This document shows positions 3,859-44,053 of a stretch of 64,000 bases of DNA, in pieces (within the stretch, counting starts at the first letter, position 1; every line of letters starts with the position of its first letter). The stretch is from Daphnia pulex. Its lineage: Eukaryota; Arthropoda; Branchiopoda; Diplostraca; Daphniidae. The stretch is taken from positions 67,001-131,000 of the forward strand of contig NC_060022.1 in the NCBI RefSeq assembly GCF_021134715.1, in the 5' to 3' direction. A program made the position numbers and the translations under genes. A model generated the notes under the pieces. It was not told the DNA's origin. It did no database searches and worked only from the letters and a program-made list of their open reading frames with translations.

Positions 3859-6800
3859 ATGCCATCCATCAAACAAAAATTTGCTGGATTCTTTCGACAA
3901 ATCTCCAATTCTGGAGGTGGAGAATGTTTAGAAAATGCTAACCAAATCAAACCCATTCATCCTTCTGACAGCAATAGTGGTTGCTTTATACATCGATACC
4001 TCAACGGGTAAGGTTTCCCCAACTTGACACTTTATTTGTTTTTTTTTTTGAAATTCTGAATTTAATGTTTTATAATTGAGCATTGGCCTTGAGGGCAAAC
4101 CCACTTTCCAATCATTAGCATAGAAAACAATGTTGTTTTTTCTGCATTAGCTATTGTCTGTATTCTGGAAATGTGCCACGTGTAAATGTATGTAATTATT
4201 TATTCCTTTTTCCATCCATTACAGAGAAACTCGTTTGAAACAGCCTGACATTTTGTTTGGCAGGACAGGACAGGAACTTCCTTGTTTACGGTTGTGCACA
4301 CTTCAAGGTGAAATAATAGCCACACACACAGGTCCAGATGGAGGATTGACAACCGTCAATCGAGGACAACGAGGCCACGTGACCAGCCAAGATCCCGATG
4401 TTTCTTACATCGACAGCGAGGACGATGTAGGATCTCCTCCCACGACAAATAGTTCAGAACCTACCTCAAACAGCGGTAAGTTTTTCTTGTCATAACATGT
4501 AATATTAGTTGAGAGACATGTTGTTGGAAAATCGTGCCGACTTGTTGTTAGCTGGGCGAAGCCGAAGTGCTGAATTGGTGACTATTCGTGCCATGGGTCA
4601 GACCTTCCTGGTACGGAATCACCTGCCTCCAACACCACCACCACCCCAACCACCGAGACAATTCATTCCTACTCTTTCATCACCTCCCACGTCACCTAAC
4701 GTTGCGATGGCAACGCCCGTTGACCCTCAAAACATCGACCATACTCGATTGTCGGATGACGATGACGATGAATTATCCACCGTCTGCGAAGATCCATCCC
4801 AACCCACGTCCAGTCCTTGTTCCTCTACCTCGCCTCCCATAATCACCAGCGCCTCCACATGCGCCGACCAATCGGACGACTATCAGGATTTCTTGTCTAA
4901 ATTTGGCATCTTGAGCCTTCCGCTTCATCCGTCGCTTGATCGTCACTCGGTGGTTCAGATCGACTCACCTGACGATACACTCATCTCTGGCTCTTTGAGT
5001 CCCTTTCTCGATCAACTTGATCCCCTTCTTACGCCGGATGTGCCGCCGTCCGTCGGTGGTAAGTGTTCGAACATCCTTCCTTTTCCCCCCCACCAACCGA
5101 CCTCTTTTCACCCATCCATCTGTGCAGTTGATGTCGATGTCGTGACTGAAAGACGCAGCCGTTATTTATTTTTTTCCTCTTTTGTTTGACTACCGACGTG
5201 ATATTATTATTACAACCATTTTATGCCTACACCAAGTTGAGTTGATTGAACAGACACCATAAAAAGCCAACGACGGGGGCTTCCGACATAACGAGCGTTC
5301 CCGGTCTAATGATGTGTATAAGGCGTGGTTTGTGGGTCGCTTTTGATAGTTTTGACACATTTTATCCGTATGCTTTTTTTCTCTTTTTTCTCCAACGCTA
5401 TGACGTCATTGGCCAGTGAGGGAATCGTGTTAGTATGATACGGGTCACATGACTCTTGCCTAGTTTTGACAGTGCCACATGGCACTTGCATGGCTTCCTA
5501 TAACGGCTGGCGACGACTCCTTTTTCTTCTATTTTCATTCTGATCGATCTGTCTCCGATTTCCGCTCGCTGTGTTCATGTGACATGCACCACCTGAATGC
5601 GACCACTTGCATGCTAAGCTGTTAGGAGGGGACGTAAATTACCGGAAGAATCTATACAGTCCTGCTGAACACAATGGGGCGTCGACGCCCATATGACTGT
5701 AACGGAATCATAGTTGGCTTGGTGTTTTGACGGCCCTAATTTTTTATTTATTTAACATTACGTCACACTTCTTCCAAGAAGAATAGCTCTTTTGTATTGA
5801 CTACTAACGTTGATTTATAAATGACACAGTAAGCGCTGCTGGCCAGTCGGAACCGCTGTCGGACCAATATCTTGCCAACCAAGAAGAATCGTTAGCCAAA
5901 GAACCTGAGCCACCAGCCACTACCACAGAGGCTACAGAGCCCGAAATTGAGATTGCAGGCGTCGTGAATTGGAACAGGCCAAGCGGGATCGCATTTGGAG
6001 CAGCCACGTCGCTCTACGAACGGCATCCCGTCTCTGGGGAAACGGCTGGCAATCCACTGGCAGATGTAAGCCACAACACTTTTCTAAATGAACTTTCCCC
6101 CCTGGCCGTTCATATTGATTATTCATTTTCCCTTTTAGGCATTCGCCATCGTGACACGCTCTAACAACGCCCTGCTGTGCCTGGCCGATGGAGTCAATTG
6201 GGGTGAGAGAGCTGCGCTGGCTGCTCGCAGTGCAATTCACGGTGCTATGGATTATCTGAATCGAGCTCTCTTTACTTCCACCACAAACAGCCGCCAGTTA
6301 ACCACCAGCGTAAGTTATAATGAGGCTGGCCGAATAAGTACATGTTCTTCTTAACTCGTGCCTATTGTTTATTGCAGGATGTCTTCTTATCGCTGCTGCG
6401 CTCATTTCACGCGGCTCACAGCATGATCTTGCAGGAGGGCGGATTATTGACTACTCTGACAGCCGCTGTAGTAGCTCAAATGGACCAGTCTAGCTTACAA
6501 AATGCTCTTTACACGGGCTCGGATAATAGCAACAGCGCTAAATTCGCTGTATGTGTATGCAATGTGGGCGATTCGTTGGCTTACGTCTACAGTCCCAAAC
6601 ATGGCGTCAGAGAGATAACGCACGGTAATAATTTAGTGCTCATCAATCTGTCAACACTATCCAGTCACTCTAGTGCTGCTCATTCTTCTTCTCTAGGCTC
6701 ACACGACGTTCAATCCATGCGAGACATGAGGGATGCTTTGGGAGCCTTGGGACCAGTGGACGGGCAGAATCCGGAGCTCAATAATTTGACGTGTTCTATG

Positions 6801-7445
6801 ACAGTGATTGAAGAAGGAGACATTGTTTTTCTGACGTCAGACGGCATTTCGGACAATTTCGATCCGGTTGTGGGGAAATTTGTTGTTGCCCGGAAGCCGG
6901 ATAAAATTGTTCCACTGCCGAATGGTGCCAAACAAACCGCTAAACCGCCAAATAGAAGTACGTATACATTACATTTTTACAGCTATTCCCTACGTTTCTA
7001 TACTAAAATAAAAAGAATGTTTACTTGGAAAAAAACAGATTTACCAACAGTCGAAGCATTCCAAAGACATGAACTCACCCTGCTGCGGATGGAGGACATA
7101 TTGCGCAACGGTATGATGCCGACCAACGACAACGGGAATCACCTGAAAGCCCAACAGCTGTGCGAGGATCTAGTCGATTTCGCCACTCGTCTGACGACGG
7201 CCAAGCGGCGGCTGCTGGAAGATCTCGAGCTCTACGTGGACCAAGATGGCAAAACACTGGATGCCGAGGAGCAGAAAATTCGACGGCGTAAAATCTGCGA
7301 GCGTTTGGCGATGATTCCCGGCAAGCTGGATCACGCCACCTGCGTGGCCTACGAAGCTCGAATTCAACCGGTTACCGGTACGGAAGCGGATGCCTTGACC
7401 CATCAAATGGTGGCCAGCTATCCCTTCCGTGAATCGTCCATTTAG
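3859..7445 (+). CDS. PP2C-like domain protein (CG9801 family), probable pseudophosphatase
   Basis: Eight exons: 3859-4007, 4225-4475, 4516-5058, 5830-6065, 6139-6309, 6378-6624, 6697-6957 and 7039-7445. They total 755 codons with consistent phases, giving 754 aa. The N-terminus ([20 protein letters not shown]) and middle are Pro/Ser/acidic and look disordered. The PP2C fold occupies the C-terminal half. [10 protein letters not shown] stands in for the canonical DGHGG metal site, and [20 protein letters not shown] and [11 protein letters not shown] match the later Asp motifs, so several metal-binding Asp residues remain. Insect relatives are annotated as PP2C-like domain-containing protein CG9801, whose role is poorly known. 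The altered first metal motif means activity is uncertain. The exon 3 acceptor (AG at 4514-4515) was chosen because the nearer AG at 4507-4508 puts the reading out of frame. The gene shares its upstream region with the sorting nexin. Confidence 0.85.
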
Positions 7446-9239
7446 AAGAAGTGAGGTCCCTCCGGGCTCAATGCCGAGCATGAAATGTAATTTGGAACCC
7501 CAAGTGATCGCGTGCCCCGCCATATAACGGACCCTTGCCGCCCACCTTAACCGGTTACTACACTCTAATTTATCCTAACAATTCTTTTAACCATATTTTA
7601 ACCATTACTGGTATATGCCACTTCTTTATAGTATTCATTTTTTAAAAGTTATCTATTCACAGTGGGGTCATTCTTTAACGTCCATTTCCCTTATATCGTG
7701 ACTCGTGTGGGTGAACGATCAAGGGGAAAAAAATGACACCACTAAATCACTGTCGCCCAAATTCTTTTTCTTTTACCTGTAGTTGACGCTGTAGCCTTTA
7801 AAAGACAATTCAAAGATAATCAATGGCGATATGCGTCGCTACCGCTTGCACAATCTAACCGATTGGTAAAAATTCATTTCCTTCTTTTTTTATTAGACTC
7901 TGCAGTATTTGAACCGAACATCTGGTCGCTTTTTATTTTTTTCAAAATTCTGCTGGCTGAATGATTTTTGAATGTTTGTAAATACACCTAGCGCAGTCTT
8001 TCGCTATTTACAATCATACGAAATTTGGGAAATTCTCGCTTAAGGTTTAGCGTCTTTTTCTCCGTATGTTTTTGATCACGAGATTGAAAATGCTTCAGGT
8101 TAAGAATGCGTCTATTTTCTGGGGGGAATAACTCACGCACCAAGGATCGATGGTATACACCGTATGCGTGCAACTTTCCTTTGATTCGTCGAATTGAGCG
8201 AGTTAAATTTATGGGTTAGCGCCAATGGCTGCAATTCTTTATTGTGTCATATTCCTTGGGTTTCTTCCTTTTGAAAATACTCGGAAGTAAAAAAGCCATT
8301 CGACCTCGTTCCCTTTTGTTTGACCGAGAGTCCCTTATATTCGCCTTTTTTTTTCTTGGGAACCCTAGTGCTCGATCACCTACCAAAAGTTTCACATGCT
8401 ACTCGCTATGGACGAGTCACGCGGGACTTTTGTGTGCACGACCAATGCCCCAAAAGTATGTATATGTGTGTGGAAACGTTCCGGTACTTCCTCTACTTAT
8501 ACTTTATAAGTACTGGAATGAGAAAAGAAAAGAAAAAAGCAATTTAAAGTGGAATCGGAACCAAGAAAAATTGTAATAATAAGTCGCCCAATTGGATTCG
8601 ATGGCACGAAGAACTCGCTGACCTTATTTCGGTATTACAACTATTCCATCTTTATAATTGATTTTTTTTTTTTGTAATAACTTTTATTTGTTTTAGCATT
8701 TCAAGTTATGACATTTCTCAATGAGTTGATCCCTGTTGATGGAGCAGAAATTGGAGACCGTACAAACTTTGGTACGTCGAACAAAGGGTTAAAAAGTTGG
8801 GTTTTTCTTTTGAATTGCAAGTTGGCCCGCGCATATCCGTCTTTATGTTCGTGATCCATCTGAACTATATGGATGGGTTAAGACATATGCAAGAAAAAGA
8901 AAAGTAATGCACCTATTGTACATACGTGAAAAGAGCTGGGAAGGGCGGCGCAACTCCGCCGCGTCGGCCAACCTCCCTGAACTGTAGTAGCCTATGTCCG
9001 GTTACGTTAACGTTCCTAACTCTGCGCTCTATCGTGCCATCCTCGTGAAACGGAAATAAGAACTGAGCGACTAACTTTCCTACCTGACAGTCGGTAGTTT
9101 GCTTACCAACAAACTCAGGTGTGGTGTGTGTTCCCCAAAGCAACTCCAAACGGTGAGTTCATTTGATTTCAATTCTCTCTCTCTAAATTGACTAAAAACA
9201 TTTTTTTTTCATGCTCTGTCAAGCGTGTAGGTGTATTAG
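7446..9239. other. Intergenic/3' UTR region, no supported gene
   Basis: I see no spliced coding chain here. The region is AT-rich with short overlapping frames on both strands. It probably contains the 3' UTR of the PP2C-like gene at its left end and 5' UTR or promoter of the endonuclease-domain gene at its right end. A possible splice acceptor (TATTAG) sits directly before the ATG at 9240, so an upstream non-coding exon of that gene is likely. Confidence 0.4.
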
Positions 9240-12149
9240 ATGGTTGGATTAAGTGATGTAAATAAGGCGGAAGCAGGAAGCAACATCCGGAACCGAACGA
9301 GCCGACTGAACCGGTCGTCGGAAGCCATGAAATCAGCCAAAGAGAACGGAGGCTACGATTCGAGCGGAGGTGGTGGTCCGACGAATCACATCAAGAGGGG
9401 AACTGCGACGGTGCACGAATTGCAAGACCAGCACGTCGTCAGTATGGAGGAATCGCTTCTGGCGAATAACCGTTGCGTCGAGCAGCTCATGCTGGAAGAC
9501 AGCAGCAGCAGCACGCAGAGCAACCCGGTCGATCCTTACGAGATGATGATCCAACAGCAACCCTCGCCGCATCGCACACCTCGGCAGCATCAGACGTTGC
9601 ATCAAAAGCCTCCACATCACGTGGTGCCCATTACCAACCGCAAACTGGAAGAAAGTAAAGAGACCTCCTCGCCGAAGCGATGGGGAAAGAATATTGAAGA
9701 GAGCATCAGCGGCATTCTCAAAAGACTGGATCAATTGGCCGCCGATCATGAGCAGCATGGAGGTAAGTTGTTTTTTCGTTTTTCATTTATAACATCACTT
9801 GTTTTTTTTTTTTAAGCCATCGCCTTGGCAACCCTAATTTGACTAGAAATTAAGGAGTACTAAACCTTGTTATATTCTGATTAGTCGGGTCGTCGTTCAT
9901 TTGCATTTTACTACACGACATGTTTATTATTTTAGATGCGATTATTATTTTTTTTTTCTGAAATGAGACGCGTATGGGTTAGTATTTTATTAGAGTAATT
10001 ATTTGATGGCTGTGCGTGAGTTATTTAATAGGCCTAAAACCTCTCAGTTAATTGCAGACGAAGCGATGGGCTACAGTACCAAAAGTACCGGTCGGTAGTA
10101 TAAACACAACCCGGGGTTCAGGGACGTTTGACTAAGTAACAAAGAAAAGTAATCAAATGAAACAGTCGTTCAAATACCAGCAGCAGGACTTACTTGTTTG
10201 ATTAGTATTGCTACGCTCCATACCATCCAAGTAAACAAACAAAACAAAGTATAGTTAAAACTACCCACTGCGATATAGTACCGAATCAACCGATGTTGTG
10301 CCATATCCCTGGAGAACCCAGCACTGGCTAAATTATATTAGCGTTTTAGTGGAGTGAAGCACGGCAGTCGTAAACTCACCCGCGACGTTTCACAGATGCC
10401 AACTCTTGTAATGAATAATCAATAACCCGTATGGATGTGTATACAATTCTCATAAAAAAATCCTAAATTATCATAGCTGGACCTCCGTTCTTCCAAACTA
10501 TTAAGTCTTTTAATACGTCTGTGTTTTATCGTCATTTTCTGTGTTATACGACCTACTGCTGCCGTGACGAATTTTCATGCTTGACTCTCGTGCACTCGAG
10601 TCGTTTACGTATAGCGATTTGTTTAGATGGGCTTGTAAGACCCATGACATAAGACCCTTTCATGTCCGTATTCACATTATGAGTCAAAACAATGTCTTTT
10701 CCAATAGATGTAGGCAAGAAGAATGCTTTGATTGCACCCCAAGTACGAGCTGGACAAATCACGACTCACAAGGATCTGACTAGCGAACGACTGCAAAACA
10801 CTAAAGAAAAAGATCGGATGGCCAAGCGGATTGAAGAACTGGAAAAGATAGTTGAACGATTGACAAATGAGAATCGACAGTGGAAAACACGTTTAGAAGA
10901 CCTGATGGTTGAAAATCGACATTTGCAGCTGGTCAAGTATCCAGCTGATGAACTCAAATCTCGCTCGTCAGTTCTCCTGGCTGACATTAAGGGACGCCCT
11001 TCCGTCGTCCTAGCAGATCAAACGGGCAAACGAAACGATGCAGCGTGGATGTCACTGTGGAATGTTTTACCTCACGTTGGAGTTCCCAACGGTATTGAAG
11101 CCAACAGCTTCCAGCCACCGCATCCGGAAATATTACTCCGTTGTTTGCAAGTAAGCCAACCAAGCTGGATCCCTAGATGAGCTATTTCCGTCCGGAATTT
11201 GACGTTTTCCTTCTCTGCTTTTTCAACAGATTAATTTACAGCACAAGAAGAAAGCCATGGAAAGGACTAAGCGCTTGCTAGTGGATCGCAATATAGACAT
11301 TGCTCTGATTCAGGAGCCATATGCTCTGGGAACTGGCGCTCCTGAAATGTATGGCGTCCCACCCGGTTACACTGCCTATCACAATTTAACGGAGCATCAT
11401 ACATCTGGGGCGGCCGTCATCGCCAAAAACACGCTGCGAGCCAAAATGTGCAGTTACAGTCGTAACGATATCGCCGGGGTAAGAGATGTGTCTAACTAGA
11501 GGATCAATAGGGTGCTGCGCGTCGCATTCAAAGCGATCATTTATTACGGCCGTAATTCCGACAGATTCAATTGAGATCGGGCAATAAAACATACCACTTT
11601 TACTCGGTGTTCTGCCGACCAAGTTCGTTGAATCTCAGCTCGACGTTGCTGCCGCTTTTGGACCAAGCGCCTCCCACTTTGGTTATCGGGATGGATGCCA
11701 GCGCCAAGCACCCGAAATGGAACAACGGAATGGTATGTCACACAGCGAATGATAGATCCACCGGCGCAAAAGACAGAAAAACAAAATAAATCTGCCGCGT
11801 AGACGTGTAAAATAAATAAAAGCTATATAACGTTACAGGTCTATCGAAAGATTGATCAACGCGGACGAGAACTGGAACGACTGTTGGATCAATACGACAT
11901 GCATCTAGCCAGTCCGCCGCTCTACAAACTGAAATACATACCGGAAAATTATACATTCATCGATGTCACACTAGGCGGAGAAAACATTCAGTTTCACGAC
12001 TGGAAATTTTGGGAAGACTCTCTGTCAGATCACCCTTACGTTTTCTTTCAGGTAATAATTGCTCATCATTTTGGCAATGCGCCTAATTCAGGATCAAATT
12101 AGCTTTGCGTCTATATCTATATTTTTCTTGTCTCCTGCAGGTCGAGTAA
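9240..12149 (+). CDS. Coiled-coil protein with LINE-type endonuclease (EEP) domain, probably domesticated
   Basis: Six exons join perfectly: 9240-9762, 10708-11150, 11230-11478, 11565-11732, 11839-12051 and 12141-12149. They total 535 codons with no stop (534 aa). Residues 1-~175 are low-complexity and disordered, ending in ESISGILKRLDQLAADHEQH. Residues ~195-255 form a charged coiled coil (MAKRIEELEKIVERLTNENR). Residues ~315-534 are an endonuclease/exonuclease/phosphatase fold of the non-LTR retrotransposon kind. Visible catalytic motifs are Asn in LQINLQHKK, Glu in ALIQEPY, Asp in VIGMDASAKHPKW, Asp in TFIDVTLGG and the SDH of SLSDHPY. The usual Asn of the DxN motif is Ser (DAS). The protein stops 8 codons after SDH; no reverse transcriptase follows. 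Four introns cut the nuclease domain, which a recent LINE copy would not have, so a host gene is inferred. An alternative start exists at 10692 (MSFPIDVGKK) reading directly into exon 2. Target and function are unknown. Confidence 0.85.
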
Positions 12150-12669
12150 AGATAAATCCATCCAAGCATTCAGAGTCGTTTATGCACATACCTTTTCCAC
12201 CATTGAATCAAGTTTGAAAATAACACTATATATATTATTGATGTGTAGCAAACTGGTAGTTTGTCATCGGATCTCTAAAACTTGGTTTTGACCTAAATTC
12301 AACTTTAGATTGAAAAAGTAAGTATTTCATCCTTTTTCCCTTTTCCGCAGCAGCACAACGCCCTTCTAATAAAAATCGAGATAACGGATGTTCATTAATA
12401 TTGTCATGGGTTGTTTTCATGTTCAATTGCGATGTAAGGCTAAACTTTTACATCGTGTTCCATAATCGATGTAAATATGTTGTGAATACACGTTTTGGCA
12501 TTGAAATGGTTAATTTTTTATTTGCTTACGTCAACCCTACGATAAAAATAATATTGTTTAGTGATTACGTTAATCCCTTGGACATGCGGTTGGGTCGGCC
12601 AATTTAGTCGACAACAGCACCCCTACTTTTTTACGTTGCCAAACAAAGCTGAATCCTATCCTATCAAAA
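12150..12669. other. AT-rich spacer without supported gene
   Basis: These ~520 bp lie between the stop of the endonuclease-domain gene and the telomere-type array. They probably carry its 3' UTR. No coding chain, RNA gene or mobile-element terminus is visible. Confidence 0.4.
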
Positions 12670-12774
12670 CCTAACCTAACCTAACCTAACCTAACCTAAC
12701 CTAACCTAACCTAACCTAACCTAACCTAACCTAACCTAACCTAACCTAACCTAACCTAACCTAACCTAACCTAA
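12670..12774 (-). repeat. Interstitial telomeric array, (CCTAA)21 = (TTAGG)n on the minus strand
   Basis: There are 21 consecutive perfect CCTAA units over 105 bp, flanked by degenerate CCTATCCTATCAAAA on the left and CGATTC on the right. TTAGG is the ancestral arthropod telomere repeat. Genes continue on both sides, so this is an interstitial array and not a chromosome end. The absence of mismatches suggests a recent origin or ongoing homogenisation. Confidence 0.95.
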
Positions 12775-12825
12775 CGATTCAACCATGTTTGCTAATTAAA
12801 TACACAACCGGTGGGGGCTGTTGTC

Positions 12826-12910: not shown

Positions 12911-12982
12911 TCCCATATGGTCTAGTGGCTAGGATACTTGGCTTTCACCCAAGAGGCTCGGGTTCGATTCCCGGTATGGGAA
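12911..12982 (+). tRNA. tRNA-Glu (anticodon TTC)
   Basis: These 72 nt fold as a full cloverleaf. The acceptor stem TCCCATA pairs with TATGGGA (12975-12981), with A as discriminator. The anticodon stem CTTGG/CCAAG encloses the loop CTTTCAC with anticodon TTC at 12944-12946. The T arm carries CGGGTTCGATTCCCG, the internal B box, and the A box is TGGTCTAGTGG. There is no intron. The only T run downstream is a short TTTT at 12987-12990, adequate for RNA polymerase III termination. Confidence 0.95.
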
Positions 12983-26090: not shown

Positions 26091-29000
26091 ATGTCCATCA
26101 TGAACTGGTAAGGAGAAACAAATTAATCATTTTCCTTTGACAATTTATTGCGTGTGATTGTGCGTGGCCGTACCCAGTCGACTCGAAAGTTGTCGAGGAA
26201 TTGGAGCGTGAGGAGGTTACACCCCTTCCTGAAACTCGTGCATCCGCCTTGTTTGATGTCTTGTGCACAGTTTTTTCTTCTTTTTTCCTGGAAACGTGAA
26301 AGATTGTCAATGAGATTTGCTTGTCACGGGCCACGTCTGTGATTAGTTTACGAGAGAGAAGACGTCAGTGAAGAACGTGCAATCAGTCGATCCTACTGAG
26401 CTGGCCTCATGTCTCTGTGTGTGTTCATGTGCCCACTCAAGCCGAGGAAGGTCGACGTTGGCGAAAATCTAATTATCTTGTTCCCCCTCTTGCCCGTCCG
26501 CCCGCCTGATGTTTTGGCGCTGTCAGTTACGGACGGATCCTGTCGGCCTATCCAGCAGCCGTGGTCTCGGCCGTCGCCACCCTGTCCGTCTCCTGCCTCA
26601 TCGTCGTCTTCACTCTCCACTCGCTTCCAGATTTCTCCGATCCGCAATTGGTGAGTGATGCCGTGATCAACAATCACGTCCATTCCTTTATTATTATGGA
26701 ATTTTTGTTCTCCTTCCGCCTTTTTCTTTTCCCAGCGAAAGTGTCGGAATCCCGACGACTTTGTCTTTCGCCGACCCCGTCCGCCGTTAAGTTTTTGACT
26801 ACGCCAATGGCGCTCAAGCGTGAACATTCGTTATTATTATTAGGTAGTCGGGACCCATTTTATTCTCTGCGCTGGCCATTTATTAGGAAGAAATTCTCCG
26901 TGTAGAATCGATCCATTGGATTTCCCGTTTTTATTTTATTTGTTATTTATTTTTGCACGCCGAAATAAGTTTCTCGAGTAATAAAACCAATTACCCACAT
27001 CCACCGTTGCCAGCAGCCCAGGCAGCCGCCAGTAGCATCCGCAGCAATCCAATTCGGGATCGGCTGTGCTGTGCTGTGCTGTGCTCGAGTCCATTTCAAG
27101 CAAAATTGCGTTTCATTTCTGTCAAGTGACTCAAAACGGCCTTGGGTTACCCCAACGGCGATTGCCATTAGTCGTCGCGTTGGTAGTGCTGGTGCTGGTG
27201 TGTGGGGCTGCATTTCAATCCGGCTGATGGTGGGCTGGGCTGGCCCGTTTCTGTGCGCGTGCTATTACGTTCCGACCCGGCAGCAGTTAAAAACTTGCAA
27301 GTGTTTCTTCTCATTTCATTTTCCCTCCGTCGCTTGCCATGCCAACAATATGGGTGTCCGTCCGTTCCCATATTCCCCCTCCCCTTTTTTTATTACCGGC
27401 TTCTTTTCCTTTTTCCCGCGTGATGTGTGAGGAAAAAAGAAAAAAAAGTCCCGGACTGATTAAAGACTCCCGGGTCCTTTTTTTCTTTTCCTTTTTACTC
27501 TCCATGAAGCAGATGGGAATTATCTTTCGAGAATTCCGGATACACACACTCCTTACAATTCTTCTTACTCGGCCTGCTTGCGTCAATGGCATTATTCCGG
27601 CATCTCTCGAGGCCAGACGAGATTTGAAATTTCTCGTCCATTTCATCGCAATCGCCTTCAATGCCTAATTTACCGTGTACGGCTTATTTCCACTCTCCGC
27701 CCGCTTTGGAAAAATTTCTTGTGTGTGTCAGCTGGATCCTTTCGGGCGACAAAAGTCAAATGCGCAACTCGCCAGTTTCTCCTTTTCCATCCCCCCTTTT
27801 ACTTTCCGACATGCAAATGGCGTGAATTTTATTTGAATTGTCTGCACTTGTGTTTTTCTCTTTTTTCAATTTCGGCTGACGTGACGGGCAACGCGAAGGG
27901 GTTCGAGTGCCGCGGAACTACGTTATCACGTCGGGCCGTCGCCTGGGAAAATCTTTTGCGGGCCAGCCAGCCAGCTGGACCTCTCAGCACCAATCCGCTC
28001 GAGTCGACTGTGGCGGCCGGCACTTCCGCCGTGTCGTCGCTCAAGAGCAACGACACGCCCCGTAAGAAGAAGAAGAAGCAAAAGTGAGTCCTTATTTGCA
28101 TGTAAACATCTATAGTGCACATCTACAAGACATTTGATTGTCATTTTGAATGATTCACATTAGAACGAAATGGCAGCAGTCTGAGCGGATCAACGGCAGC
28201 GACTCGACAAGTTCCGTGTCGTCGGCAATGTCGTCGACGTGGGGATCGGTGCGGACGCGGAGCAACAGCCTGGACCAAGACGGCCATCGTGAGAGCAGCA
28301 GCAACCAAGCCAAAGCCAATCAAGTCTGGCCGTCGCCGCAGACGAATAAATGGCAGACGAAAGCTGCTACTGCAAGTGGTGCTGCTGGTGGCCAACAAGT
28401 CCAGCAGCATCCATTTGAAGTTCTGCGCGGTCTGGAGAGCAGCGGCGGCTCTAAAGACGGGCAGCCGGCCAATCACAGTCATTTCCAGTGGGGCGAATCC
28501 GTCACTCGCTCACCGGCTCATCCCATCCGACACAAGTAAAAACAACAGTCCATCACGTTTGCTGGACGTCAAGTGTACCACTACATTTCCTTTTTCCTCT
28601 CTATGTAGACCCATGTGGAGCCAGTTGCAACAGCTGGGCACCGCCGGACTGTTGCGATCAGACGAGGACGATCGAGACGACGACGACGACGAAGAAGAAA
28701 ACGAAAAGGAGACGGACCAGCAGATGACGAAAGTCGGTCATCCGTCTCACAATCGGTTCTATTTCTGCGACCAACCGCACGGTGAATACGCTCACGTCAT
28801 TTTCGCTGCGGCCGGCCAGGCAACAGCTAATCGATCCCTGTGGAATGTCGAGTCGATTCAATCCATGTGCCGGCTGGACGAGCTGATGAGATCTAGTCCA
28901 CTCTTCCCGGCCATCTGCCAGCAACCGGCTCATCAGCACCAACCAGCCACCGGCCAGCCACAGCAGCAGCAGTGCTGCCCTTCCTGGACGCTGGGCCACT

Positions 29001-32000
29001 ATGTAGCCTTGATGAGGAATCGCTCCACGTGTGCCGATCTCGACGCCGACGACGTCACGGCGGCTTTCAACATTCTCCAGGCTTGCTCCCGACATTACCA
29101 CGGGCTCCAGCTCTCGCCCAACTGCGACGCCATTGTCCAGGAAGGTATTAAATACAGTAGTAGTACACGTGTCGTTTATATTAGATGTACATTGTGGCCA
29201 CCGGCGACGGCCCACCATTGTTTGTGTGTGTTGTTGATCCAAGCTGGGCTTCTTATTTTCTTTGTGGCGATAGGTTATTCCAGTCAGCCGGACACTGCGG
29301 TGGCGGGGGATTGCGGCCGAGACGTGCCTGAAATGTGTACTCGCCACAATGCAATTTTTCATATATTCCACTATTTAACGGACGCGGAATTTTTAGTGGA
29401 CGGCCAGCCGCATTTGCGCTACGCCGCCGTTTTCCTACCGACGGCCCGCAGCACGGCCCTTTTGCCCTTTTTCCATTGGCTCAGCAACTCGGCTGCTGGC
29501 CGCGACGGAGTTGGAGTCTGGCCGCTGGCCGACAACTGGACGCAAGTTGTGGCCATGGACTTTGGCTTGAAGGAGGCCCTTTTCAACGAGTACGTCATCC
29601 GCGACGTCCTCTACCTCAGCGTCGGCGCCGTCCTGGTCTGCACCTGCATGTGGTGGTACACGGCCTCGCTGTTTCTCACCTTGATGGCCATCGTCTCGGT
29701 CGTCCTCTCGCTGGCCGTCGCCTATTTCGTCTACACGTTCGTCTTTGAATTGGATTTCTTCCCCTTTATGAACCTCCTGGCCGCCGTCATTGTCGTCGGC
29801 ATAGGAGCAGACGACGTCTTTGTCTACGTCCAGGTCTATTTATTTTTAATTTTTATGATTTAAAATGAAATAGTCAATTAAATTGTCTTGTTTTAAATTT
29901 AAAGGTCTGGCGCTGCGTCAAGCTGGACAAGGATGGAACCACCCTGGCCAAATTGGTGATGGACACTCTAAGTCACGCCGGACTGTCGATGCTGGTGACG
30001 TCACTGACGACGGCGGCAGCTTTCTTCTCTTCTTTCATCTGCCCAGTGACGGCCATCCGGTGTTTCAGCCTTTTTGCCGGACTGACGGTCACGATCCATT
30101 TTCTCTTTATGCTCTCATGGCTGCCGGCCTCGGTCCTCTTGGCCGAGAAATACTTTTCCGGGCCCGTTTGTCGCCACCCCGGCACAGCCAACGCCGCCAC
30201 CGCCACTGCCGACGCCAGTAGACGGCCGGGCGTGCCCGTTTTTGTCCTCCATCCGTTTCGCAGCTGCTGGCGCACCACTAGCGATCTGGGCCGCATCACA
30301 TTCGACAAGATTCTGCCCTGCATCGTCGTCAAGTTGCGATGTGCGTAATTTATATTGAACTGATTTGTTCCAACTGTAATCAATCCATGATCATTTTGAG
30401 TTATTCATTTTGCAGATTTCTGGATTGTCGTTTTGGGCGGATTGGCCGTCGCTGCTGGTGTCGTCGTCTTCCATTACCCGAAATTGGAATTACCAGACAC
30501 GAAGGAATTTCAATTATTCTCATCCGACCATCCGTTTGAACGGTGAGGCAGAGCCAAACAAAACTTTTGTACCCGTTGGCAAATTTATTCAATTTAATTA
30601 TTTATCCTAATCCTATTTCTAAACAGATACGATTTGGAATTCAAAAACGAATTTTGGTTCGAGCGCTCGCAACGGGCCGAATTGCTGGCCAAACTGCCGC
30701 TGCGCTTCGTGTGGGGCGTAGTCGACGAGGACAATGGCAACTCACTGGACCCGTCGTCCAAAGGTTCGCTGGTTCTCGATCCTTCCTTCAACATGGCCGC
30801 TCCCGAGTCGCAGGAGTGGCTCTCGCACTTTTGCAAGGACATCCGCGACCAGCCCTTTTTCCAGCCGACGCTCGGCCCGCTCCTGCCCAACTGCTTCATC
30901 GAAACTTTCCAATCTTGGATGGACAGGCGTTGCGAGGTGATTGCTGCTCTGCTGCTGCTCTTTCATTAGCTGATAACAAACCAAAAAAATGGGACTCTGG
31001 GATAAGCCCCGCCCCCCCCCCCCCCTTGGCCCTTGACAGCAAGATAAAAACAATTGGAAGGGGGAAATCCAAAATGTCAAAAAAGGAAAAAAGTTTTTTC
31101 CCGTTTTCATTTCGGCCCAGCCCAGCCCCTGAACAAAAGAATCCCGTACAAGTCCGTCGGGAAACTTGAGGCCAATCGATAATCATCTCCTCTCTCTCTG
31201 CTACTGCTGCCGGGAACAGGGAGAGGAGGGGGTACAGTGTACTTTTGACCCGCGTCAACTTTGAACCACGTAGGCCGGGAGAGTTGCAAAGTCCACAAGA
31301 ATGAACCCCTCCAACACCCTCAATTCGTGGGCAAGGGGGTTTCTCTTTTATTCTCACAAGTTGCCATGGAAATCCGCACTGGCAATCGGGCAAAAGGCCG
31401 AAAAAGTTCCCCCGAACGAACCGTTAATGAAACATTTCTACCATGCCCAGGGAGAGAGGATAACTCTATAGCCACCCCCAAGTTTTATCCGCTAGTCTCC
31501 TTGTAATCAAACTGATTAATTCTCACGTCTTATAACTTTTGTCTTTTCTCTTCCGTCAGGATTCGGTGGATGGCAAGAACAGGACGCCGTGCTGCGAAGT
31601 CTCGACATTCCCCTACAGCGAGCACGTCTTCAACCAGTGCATCCTCCTGGCCGTCAAGGATCTCTACGAAACGCCGGCCCAATTTTTCCTGCCCGGAGTG
31701 GCCGGGCCGAGATTCTCCAAATCGACGCAGCGACTGGACGCCGTCGTCGTCGAATACGACAGTAACGTCACTTTCTCGCTCTCCTACACGGAAATGGACG
31801 CTTTCCGTCGCCAAGTTGACGACTGGATGGACGGCCAGCTGGCCTCGGCTCCGCCTGGTATGAAGGGCGGCTGGTTCACCAGCGATTTGGCCTTTTACGA
31901 CGTCCAGCGCAGCTTATCGGCCGGCACCGTTCACGCCATCGCGCTGGCCATGGCCATCGCCCTGGTCGTTTTGATTGGCGCCACCGGCAACCTGTGGCTG

Positions 32001-32882
32001 AGTTGCCTGTCGGTCGTTTGTTTGACGAGCGTCGTCCTGGTCTCAGTCGCCGTCCTCGTCCTCCTCGGCTGGAAATTGAACATTCTCGAATCGGTTTCCG
32101 TCAGCCTGGCCGTCGGGCTCTCGGTCGATTTCACGCTCCACTACGCCGTCGGCTATCGGCTCAGCGGCCATGAGACGGACAGGGAGTCGGCCGTCGTTTT
32201 CTCACTGACGCGGATGAGCAGTCCCATCGCCATGGCGGCCGTCACGACGCTGTCGGCCGGAGCGGCCGTGCTGCCATCTAGCGTCATCGCCTACCAACAG
32301 ATTGGCACTTTTGTCGTCGTCGTCATGGTGACGTCGTGGATCTACTCGACGCTCTTCCTCCCGTCGCTCCTCAGAGTCTGTGGACCGCAGAACGGATGCT
32401 CCCAAATTCCCTCGTCCTCCTGTCTAGGCTCTGGCTGCTGCTGCTGCTGTTGTTGCCCAGCTGGTCCGACCCAGCACGTCGATAAAACCGTTTACAGTTA
32501 CGGACTGTCCGAGTCGACCCTGTCCACGTCCAGCACCTCCTGTCCTAATCCCAATTCCAACATTTCCACTGTCCATTGCGAGACTCACGAACTGGAACCT
32601 CTCACGTCCAGCCATCGTGTCAAAGCCGTTCGCTCGGCTGGCAACAACCGACCACGATCCGGAAGCCTAGTGGCCGCCAACGACCATCACTCCAGCGGGT
32701 CTACCACTGCTGCTGCTGCTCCGGCATCCGCCGCCGTCACGTTGATTCAAAACGGGCGGAAGATGAGGAAGATTAGCCTGCCCAGCACGACGGCCCTGCT
32801 GGTGGCCGAAGCACATGATCACCACCGCGAGCCCCAAGTCGTTTGCATAGAAACTCTCAACTCGGACATGTGGGCGGCGTGA
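26091..32882 (+). CDS. disp: Dispatched homologue (Hedgehog release, RND/patched family)
   Basis: Ten exons: 26091-26107, 26527-26650, 27899-28083, 28164-28535, 28609-29144, 29274-29833, 29905-30340, 30416-30542, 30627-30936 and 31560-32882, totalling 1330 codons (1329 aa). The start MSIMNC is tiny and spliced to TM1 (VSAVATLSVSCLIVVFTL), followed by the family sequence LPDFSDPQ and GFECRGTTLSRRAVAWENL. A Ser/Gln-rich and acidic low-complexity insert precedes the first extracellular domain. The sterol-sensing-like block carries GIGADDVFVYVQ in TM4, with the intramembrane Asp pair needed by RND transporters. The second half has GLSVDFTLHYAVGY in TM10. The C-terminal tail (from ~32400) is Ser/Cys-rich. 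Dispatched is a 12-TM plasma membrane protein that uses the Na+ gradient to release lipid-modified Hedgehog. The very short first coding exon is supported by phase (TG plus T gives Cys). Confidence 0.93.
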
Positions 32883-41321: not shown

Positions 41322-42110
41322 ACCAGGGTGTTAATCCTATTAAAAAAAAAAAAAAAACAAACAAACAACTCAATTACTATCAAGCAACAATTCTCAAATG
41401 ACAAAACAATTTGAACGAAGTTAAGTTGAACTACAAAATCCTTCAGAATAAATGTTGCAAAGGAATTTACAGTTGGCAAGATTTCAAAGGTTCAATTTCC
41501 ACAACTGAAATAGGTTGAAGAGATAGGCACTAACTAAATCTGTAGTCTCACAGTTAGAAAGTTGAACATTATTTTTACCTGAATTGTTCTGAAGTGTTTC
41601 TGACAAACGTGAAGCTGGTACAGGAAAAAGAGACATTTTGGCAAAATGTTCAGCTGCTCAGGCCACATGATCAGATGAAATTGCCATGTAGAAATTATAG
41701 ACTGTTACCAGATACCAGGGTGTTAATCCTATTTTAAAAAAACGAACAACTCAATTACTATCAAGCAACAATTTCTCAAATGAAAAAACATTTTGATCGA
41801 AGTTAACTTAAACTACAAAATCCTTCAGAATAAATGTTGCAAAGGAATGTACAGTTGGCAAGCTTTTCAAAGGTTAAATTTCCACAACTGAAATAGGTCG
41901 AAGAGAACTAGTTGAAGAGAACTAAATCTGTAGTCTCACAGTTAGAAAGTTGAACATTATATTTACCCGAATTGTTCTGAAGTGTTTCTGACAAACATGA
42001 AGCTGGTACAGGAAAAAGAGACGACATTTTGCAGAATGTTCAGCTGCTTAGGCCACATGATCAGATGAAATTGCCATGTAGAAATTATAGGCTGTTACCA
42101 GATAAATACC
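41322..42110. repeat. Direct tandem duplication of a ~390-bp unit
   Basis: Two copies lie head to tail, about 41322-41715 and 41716-42110. Each begins with CAGGGTGTTAATCCTATT and contains AACTACAAAATCCTTCAGAA, TGTAGTCTCACAGTTAGAAA and ending sequence GCCACATGATCAGATGAAAT. Copies differ by scattered substitutions and small indels, including the length of the poly-A tract after the start. No coding capacity. Similar phrases near 51700-52100 suggest a dispersed family. Confidence 0.8.
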
Positions 42111-42577: not shown

Positions 42578-44053
42578 ATGGAGAAAGATGGCCGCCGCCA
42601 TGTTGTATGGTGTCTGAATGGGAAAAACTACGCGTCTTGGAAATTTGGAATGAAGCTGGCGTTACAAAGTGTTGAGCTTTGGGAAGTCGTGAACGGGACT
42701 CAACGGCAACCTGCTGAAGTAAGTTTATTGATGATTTATTGTTTTCTTTATGTGTGTGATCCGTGCCTGACAACAACGCGATATGAGATGCCTATCTGTG
42801 GCGTGGTACCAACTATTAAATTGACAAACTTAGATCCCGGCGTGAGTGCTTAATCTCTGCCACTTGATTTTGTTTTTTGTGTGTTTGTGTTTGCTGGACA
42901 TTTCTCTTTTTTGTGTTTCTTTCTCAATCTGTTTGGTCACTCTGGCTAAATTCCATCATATGATGGTGGACAAGTGTGTGCTAGAGTTGCAAGCATCTAG
43001 GAGACAGCTGAGTGTTTTTCCACATCGAGATGATGTGAGGGAGATTCCACATTGAGATAATGTGAGAGGTATTCCACATCGAGATGATGTGAGGGAGATT
43101 CCACATTGAGATAATGTGAGAGGTATTCCACATCGAGATGATGTGAGGGAGATTCCACATTGAGATAATGTGAGGCTGCCATGGATATCACAAACCTAAC
43201 CATCTTCTCGTTTTGTTACCACAATCAGAGACGCAATGCTGACCAGGTGATTGAAAATGCAGCTGATATAACCAACTGGAACAAGAGAAATACCACGGCA
43301 ATGCAGAACATATTTGGCGCCATCAAAGAAGACCAATCAAGGATCCTGATGTCTTGTAGCACAGCCCAAGAGATGTGGATGAAATTGGAGACTGAGTATG
43401 AAGAAGATGCCGCAGACAATGCACCTCTATTGTGGACAAAGTTCTATGGATGCACATTTCGACCAAGCCAAAGTGTATCAAGCTTCCTGACTGAGTTGGA
43501 ACAGATAGCATTCCGTCTGAAGAGCCTCAACATAGCTATTGATGATAATCAAATAATGGCAAAGATACTCATGTCGCTTCCTCCAGAGTTCCGTGTTTTT
43601 GCCTTTGCATGGGACAGCACGCCTGTTGCAGAGAAAACTCTCAAGAAACTGACTACTCGCCTTATAGCATTGGACAAGAGCCTGCGCAACGACGAAGAAG
43701 CAAAATCGACATCTGATACTGCCTATCTCAGTAAGCCGAACAGAGATGAATCACAGCACAAAGAGCAAGCACTTCCTGCCCAGTACGGTCAGAACAAAGG
43801 AAAAAGCCACCCTTCCAGTCAACATGCTGGTATACCGAGAACATGCTGGGAGTGCAACTCCACTACGCATGTTAGAGCTCAATGCCGTCAATACAAACGC
43901 CGGCGTGAGAGAGAAGGAGAAGAAGCGGACAGAAAAAGGAAGCGTTACGATCGACATGACAGAAGAGATGATAAACTATGTAAGCTCCCAGGAGCAACTG
44001 GCCGATGCACTCACGAAACCCCTGGCTGCTCCACGCTTCAAGTATCTCCGTGA
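42578..44053 (+). CDS. Gag-like protein of the copia-type element, fused out of frame to a pol remnant
   Basis: Exon 1 (42578-42718, start MEKDGRRHVVWCLNGKNYAS) is the N-terminal Gag domain of copia elements. A GT-AG interval 42719-43228 separates it in phase from 43229 onward. The second part has the Gag helical region (WNKRNTTAMQNIFGAI, FLTELEQIAFRLKSLNI) and a CCHC zinc knuckle CWECNSTTHVRAQC at about 43850-43890. Near 43975 the frame enters sequence whose other reading frame carries the RNase H tail, so the deletion that removed pol also shifted the frame, and this frame ends at 44053. The product could still bind RNA or form particles, but cannot act alone. Whether the interval is spliced is inferred from the sites only. 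Confidence 0.75.
43018..43173 (+). repeat. Minisatellite, six 27-bp half-units in the gag intron
   Basis: Alternating units begin TTCCACATCGAGATGATGTG and TTCCACATTGAGATAATGTG, giving three 54-bp dimers in tandem. They lie entirely inside the putative intron of the copia-type element. Confidence 0.9.

Follow-up and report, generated by a model that had tools for sequence, protein, structure and literature searches.

Gene structure and neighbourhood

The region analysed, referred to below as the window, is a 64-kb stretch of contig 6 (positions 67,001-131,000); the genome is assembled into 13 contigs and totals 133 Mb. On its plus strand, between positions 9240 and 12149, six exons can be spliced into a 1605-nt frame that codes for 534 amino acids and is closed by one terminal stop codon (Table 1), in agreement with a preliminary description of six in-phase exons over this interval. 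All five introns (945, 79, 86, 106, and 89 nt) are bounded by GT and AG, and their phases are 1, 0, 0, 0, and 0, respectively. The GC content of the exons is 0.44-0.54, versus 0.36-0.47 for the introns. Each of the two alternative frames of the spliced coding sequence contains 23 stop codons, and 534 random codons would be free of stops with a probability of ca. 7e-12, assuming equal codon use.

Table 1. Exons and putative transcript elements of the gene, in window coordinates.
Feature	Position	Strand	Remarks
Possible 5' UTR intron	9153..9239	+	sole GTRAGT donor in 8900-9239; TTAG directly before the ATG
Exon 1, coding, aa 1-174	9240..9762	+	frame; donor GAG/GTAAGT
Exon 2, coding, aa 175-322; coiled-coil-like aa 216-250, then first endonuclease residues	10708..11150	+
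Exon 3, endonuclease; Asn of INL (aa 324), Glu of IQE (aa 351)	11230..11478	+
Exon 4, endonuclease; Phe aa 421 (SVFCRPS), Asp aa 449, Ser aa 451 (GMDAS)	11565..11732	+
Exon 5, endonuclease; Asp of FIDVTL (aa 503), SDH aa 524-526	11839..12051	+
Exon 6, final two codons (VE) and stop	12141..12149	+
Possible polyadenylation signal (AATAAA or ATTAAA)	12368..12373	+	ca. 220 nt past the stop

The acceptor of intron 4 is uncertain, because the model places four residues, VYRK, between WNNGM and IDQRG that are absent from 18 aligned LINE rows, and because an in-frame AG is found 12 nt downstream. Use of this AG (exon 5 start at 11851) would delete exactly VYRK and restore the LINE length. Either splicing uses this second AG, or the acceptor is positioned before the old join.

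Just 3' of the gene, and ca. 80 kb from the contig start, there is a perfect 21.6-copy AACCT tract (12668-12775), which reads TTAGG, the arthropod telomere repeat, on the other strand. Right after it comes a tRNA-Glu (TTC; 12911-12982), the sole tRNA found in the window. Inspection by eye revealed an ORF resembling a PP2C-type phosphatase (6324-7445), ORFs resembling a multi-pass membrane protein of the Patched/Dispatched type (28154-32882), and a Copia-type gag-like ORF with a zinc knuckle (43169-44053), the last located near tandem repeats at 41355-42104 and 43018-43175.

Identity and limits of the endonuclease domain

The only Pfam match over cut-off in the 534-aa protein was to the retroelement family PF14529, at residues 416-529 (E 2.6e-20; 72.9 bits versus a cut-off of 27.4). 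In a phmmer search, the C-terminal 225 residues aligned to the TRAS1 endonuclease over almost the full length (E 3.7e-6), and TRAS1 was the best solved relative. A profile that combined the gene with seven R1-like LINEs and one Jockey-like LINE (these clade names are our own reading) found the TRAS1, R1Bm, and L1 endonucleases. The motifs IQEPY, GMDASAKH, FIDVTL, and LSDHPY, listed in the preliminary description, are all present in the spliced protein. Judging from these matches, the C-terminal ca. 225 residues are an R1/TRAS-type non-LTR endonuclease, and the LINE-type identity assigned at the outset holds.

The similarity to endonucleases starts with the final codons of exon 2 (LRCLQ/INLQ). 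Two things follow from this: introns 2-5 are located inside the domain or at its extreme end, as had been proposed, and the point of fusion lies within an exon rather than at an intron. After the His of the SDH motif, the protein continues for eight residues and stops about where solved endonucleases cease matching.

Copy number and reverse transcriptase

Many near-identical, intron-less copies followed by reverse transcriptase (RT) had been named in the preliminary description as the observation that would speak against a host gene. No such copies were found: the best full-length endonuclease match elsewhere in the genome was ca. 40% identical, with some short partial matches slightly higher; by alignment, the nearest endonuclease was 39.0% identical, and the range among six LINE pairs compared was 38-58%. 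The gene is single copy in the 133-Mb genome. Its own ORF, which closes at 12149, contains no RT. A search of the 64-kb window with five RT-containing ORF parts and one Jockey-like ORF stretch gave no match at E 0.01, and an RT family search placed none near the gene among the best 150 of 943 candidates.

For comparison, places in the genome with a full-length, stop-free endonuclease were fetched, the match being continuous from query position 9 or earlier to at least position 223. RT was found downstream at 28 of the 29 distinct places (30 rows, since L007 and L019 coincide), L080 being the exception. Eleven more fetched rows without an RT match (L046, L047, L049, L051, L056, L062, L065, L071, L072, L073, and L078) have endonuclease matches that are partial or stop-bearing. 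The fetched places are part of 150 scored PF14529 matches, so further RT-less ORFs may exist.

Non-LTR retrotransposons are intron-less and multi-copy; the gene has five introns in the model and is present once. Single copy, an intact frame, and the lack of a mobility partner, all seen here, are traits of domesticated transposable elements.

Phylogenetic position

Trees of the gene with LINE endonucleases and TRAS1 were rooted on L001, a Jockey-like LINE. The gene joined the R1-like LINEs of the same genome and TRAS1 fell outside; support for this position of TRAS1 was moderate and below the star threshold of the tool both with L080 (89/90) and without it (93/96). The gene formed a long branch within the R1-like set or at its base. 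When the gene was removed, TRAS1 joined the LINEs at one unresolved fork, and the donor family is not fixed by the trees. A long branch whose exact place in the LINE set is not fixed could also be expected of a gene of non-LINE origin, i.e., an ancient cellular gene resembling AP endonucleases, or even the gene from which LINEs obtained the domain. We consider such an origin highly improbable, given that the gene groups, with moderate support, with LINE endonucleases of this genome and apart from TRAS1 and the Jockey-like LINE, and that it matches a retroelement family. No relatives were found when the full protein was searched against viral contigs and prokaryote genomes, or profile A1 against viral contigs.

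Active site

Catalytic positions were compared across 69 aligned rows, including L080, that represent 67 places (L007/L019 and L050/L076 overlap). The gene keeps Asn-324, Glu-351, Asp-449, Asp-503, and Ser-Asp-His at 524-526. The Asn of the DxN motif is replaced by Ser-451, as had been reported together with the retention of the Glu, Asp, and SDH residues; 62 of the 63 related rows that cover this site have Asn. A second catalytic change had been missed: the Tyr of S-x-Y-x-R-P-S is Phe-421 (Tyr in 57 of 60 rows, the others being two stops and one Phe). In the alignment that gave the nearest identity of 39.0%, no other row has both the Tyr and the Asn changed.

Through a gene-to-L001 and then an L001-to-L1 alignment, the Phe-421 and Ser-451 sites correspond to Tyr115 and Asn147 of L1, which are given as putative catalytic residues in the accessible part of a study of an L1 endonuclease variant (PMC3670995). 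According to the available passages of two papers on APE1, Asn212 helps to place the attacking water (PMC12557600), mutation of Asn212 decreases activity ca. 7000-fold, and Tyr171 is termed catalytically essential (both PMC13192912, a preprint). A weakened nuclease, one of the outcomes considered in the preliminary description, becomes more likely with the loss of the second catalytic residue, and the protein is likely to be one; residual cutting with Ser and Phe might occur. The replacement of two catalytic residues in a mostly kept domain suggests a protein that would hold DNA rather than cut it.

A domesticated endonuclease that still cuts, with Ser and Phe tuning its activity, e.g., for repair or RNA processing, would account for the retention of all the other catalytic residues, and the genome contains another RT-less ORF with a full catalytic set (see below). 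We consider this unlikely in view of the near-universal Tyr and Asn in the LINE rows, residues that are both important in APE1 as far as the excerpts of the preprint go (PMC13192912).

Retention of conserved residues in the domain

Conservation classes were defined from 13 chosen LINE endonucleases, which yielded 40 invariant columns. The gene keeps the LINE residue in 34 of these 40, and in 14/20, 22/59, and 14/92 columns as conservation falls (invariant columns versus the 50-79% class, Fisher p 3.3e-6). Besides the catalytic Tyr and Asn, the invariants lost are at N459 (S in LINEs), M482 (L), S486 (N), and V529 (I).

Eight stop-bearing LINE copies were run beside the gene and behaved in three ways (values are for invariant and variable residues, respectively). 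L054 (28/40; 31/58) and L057 (28/40; 35/51) had lost invariants and kept variable residues, as under neutral decay. Both classes were kept in L021 (37/40; 42/59), L034 (35/40; 39/57), and L043 (37/40; 43/59). L018 (33/40; 27/59), L024 (31/40; 22/57), and L047 (34/40; 24/57) showed a pattern like that of the gene. Since three of the eight resemble the gene, a host gene and a diverged LINE that died recently cannot be told apart by retention. The pattern fits a domain that would have been constrained through most of its past, part of which may predate capture.

The similar retention in L018, L024, and L047, and the many LINE remnants in the genome, are what one would expect if the locus were a LINE fossil, a decaying copy that can be spliced on paper by chance and is no functional gene. 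Against this stand the 534 codons without a stop, the canonical splice sites in phase, and the long, unique N-terminal frame that is in phase with the domain, and we regard a fossil as very unlikely.

N-terminal region

Residues 1-174 contain few bulky hydrophobics and much Ser, Gln, and His, and are likely to be disordered. The first 322 residues matched only their own exons when searched against the 133-Mb genome. Kinship of this region with LINE ORF1 was considered and rejected, as there was no second genomic match and the fetched loci gave E values of 0.1 or weaker.

A coiled coil had been proposed between the N-terminus and the domain. A register of five heptads can be placed at residues 216-250, with I, V, N, L, and N at positions a and L, L, W, L, and L at positions d. 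This register was picked by eye and then scored, and 116 of 2000 shuffles equalled its score; an automatic heptad scan did not single out the segment, and Pfam matches to coiled-coil families were weak and under their own cut-offs. Support for the proposed coiled coil is moderate.

A second RT-less endonuclease ORF

The exception among the stop-free endonucleases, L080, belongs to a single-copy ORF (L081/L080; C10, ca. 731.9-734.0 kb) that ends in a LINE-type endonuclease (PF14529, 52.2 bits). All catalytic residues are kept in this ORF, so active domesticated copies may exist in the genome. The fetched downstream sequence (2 kb) gave no RT match, and the N-terminal region has no other copy. 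A putative 69-nt GT-AG intron with two stops inside joins two frames in phase 0; it is located upstream of the endonuclease, which itself has none. A HEPN domain in this ORF was rejected, the match being weak (E 0.027) and under cut-off. Also rejected was L065 (C9:4855.5-4858.9 kb) as a third gene: on visual inspection, it has broken frames and lies behind zinc-knuckle ORF1-like sequence.

Descent of the window gene and the L081/L080 ORF from one domesticated ancestor would be compatible with our preferred interpretation of the window gene as a domesticated endonuclease. The window gene is the best match of L080 (33.2%), and the two pair in the best tree (66/85). That support is weak, however, and long branches attract; the next match of L080, L018, is almost equal (32.3%). 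Moreover, the N-terminal regions have no significant similarity, and an intron inside the endonuclease is found in the window gene and not in L081/L080. We think common descent of the two improbable.

Interpretation

With modest confidence, we favour the view that the gene is a domesticated LINE endonuclease, i.e., a cutting-impaired, probably dimeric, DNA-binding host protein. An unrelated N-terminal region, which is probably disordered and partly coiled-coil, would have received an R1/TRAS-type LINE endonuclease at its end by fusion, and introns would have been gained after capture. The protein is presumably made, and the coiled coil would pair two molecules. The domain may retain its DNA-binding fold and metal site and cut poorly or never. 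Its job might conceivably be to occupy sites that related intact LINEs would nick.

An extended version of this scheme, which we consider distinctly unlikely, is that R1-type LINE endonucleases made host proteins more than once in this genome, and that the product of the window gene is dead as a nuclease, dimerises, and shields or marks the DNA sites attacked by related intact LINEs; it would then be a restriction factor derived from the nuclease of the parasite. The existence of the second RT-less ORF makes recurrent capture testable. Single copy, rich in introns, and changed at two catalytic residues but not at the others, the window gene would represent a retroelement-derived pseudonuclease.

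Relation to known systems

Transposases and gag proteins have often been domesticated, but few host genes seem to be built on the endonuclease of a LINE. One precedent, the ruminant protein bcntp97, also known as CFDP2, was found among the matches listed in open-licence literature, and no captured LINE endonuclease of R1 type or from an arthropod was among them. According to the titles of Iwashita et al. (2003, 2006, 2009), cited in PMC7284322, bcntp97 is a Bucentaur paralogue that recruited the APE-like endonuclease domain of RTE-1. As far as the titles of these papers allow a comparison, both are host proteins with a LINE-type AP endonuclease domain; the source in bcntp97 is RTE, whereas the window gene is R1/TRAS-like and has another host partner. 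Capture of a LINE endonuclease is therefore already known from bcntp97, and what would be new here, relative to the matches listed, is an R1-type, intron-rich case with two catalytic residues replaced.

GCRG213p, an L1-endonuclease variant for which its authors propose a spliced L1 ORF2, is likewise an endonuclease-like part of a LINE standing alone; unlike the window gene, it is not presented as a diverged single-copy gene in the accessible text (PMC3670995).

The endonucleases of TRAS1 (1wdu) and R1Bm (2ei9) share the domain, TRAS1 nearly over its full length and R1Bm in two stretches. Both keep the Asn of DxN and the Tyr, whereas the window gene has Ser and Phe, introns within the domain, and no RT found. 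In TRAS1 and R1Bm, RT comes after the endonuclease, within an ORF2 that has no introns. The nearest relatives found are R1-like LINEs that are intact in the same genome (L012, L022, L027, and L042, among others); their endonucleases are ca. 31-40% identical to that of the gene. Unlike the gene, they have RT after the endonuclease, RVT_1 being Pfam-confirmed in L042 only. One identical endonuclease is common to six places, L025-L030.
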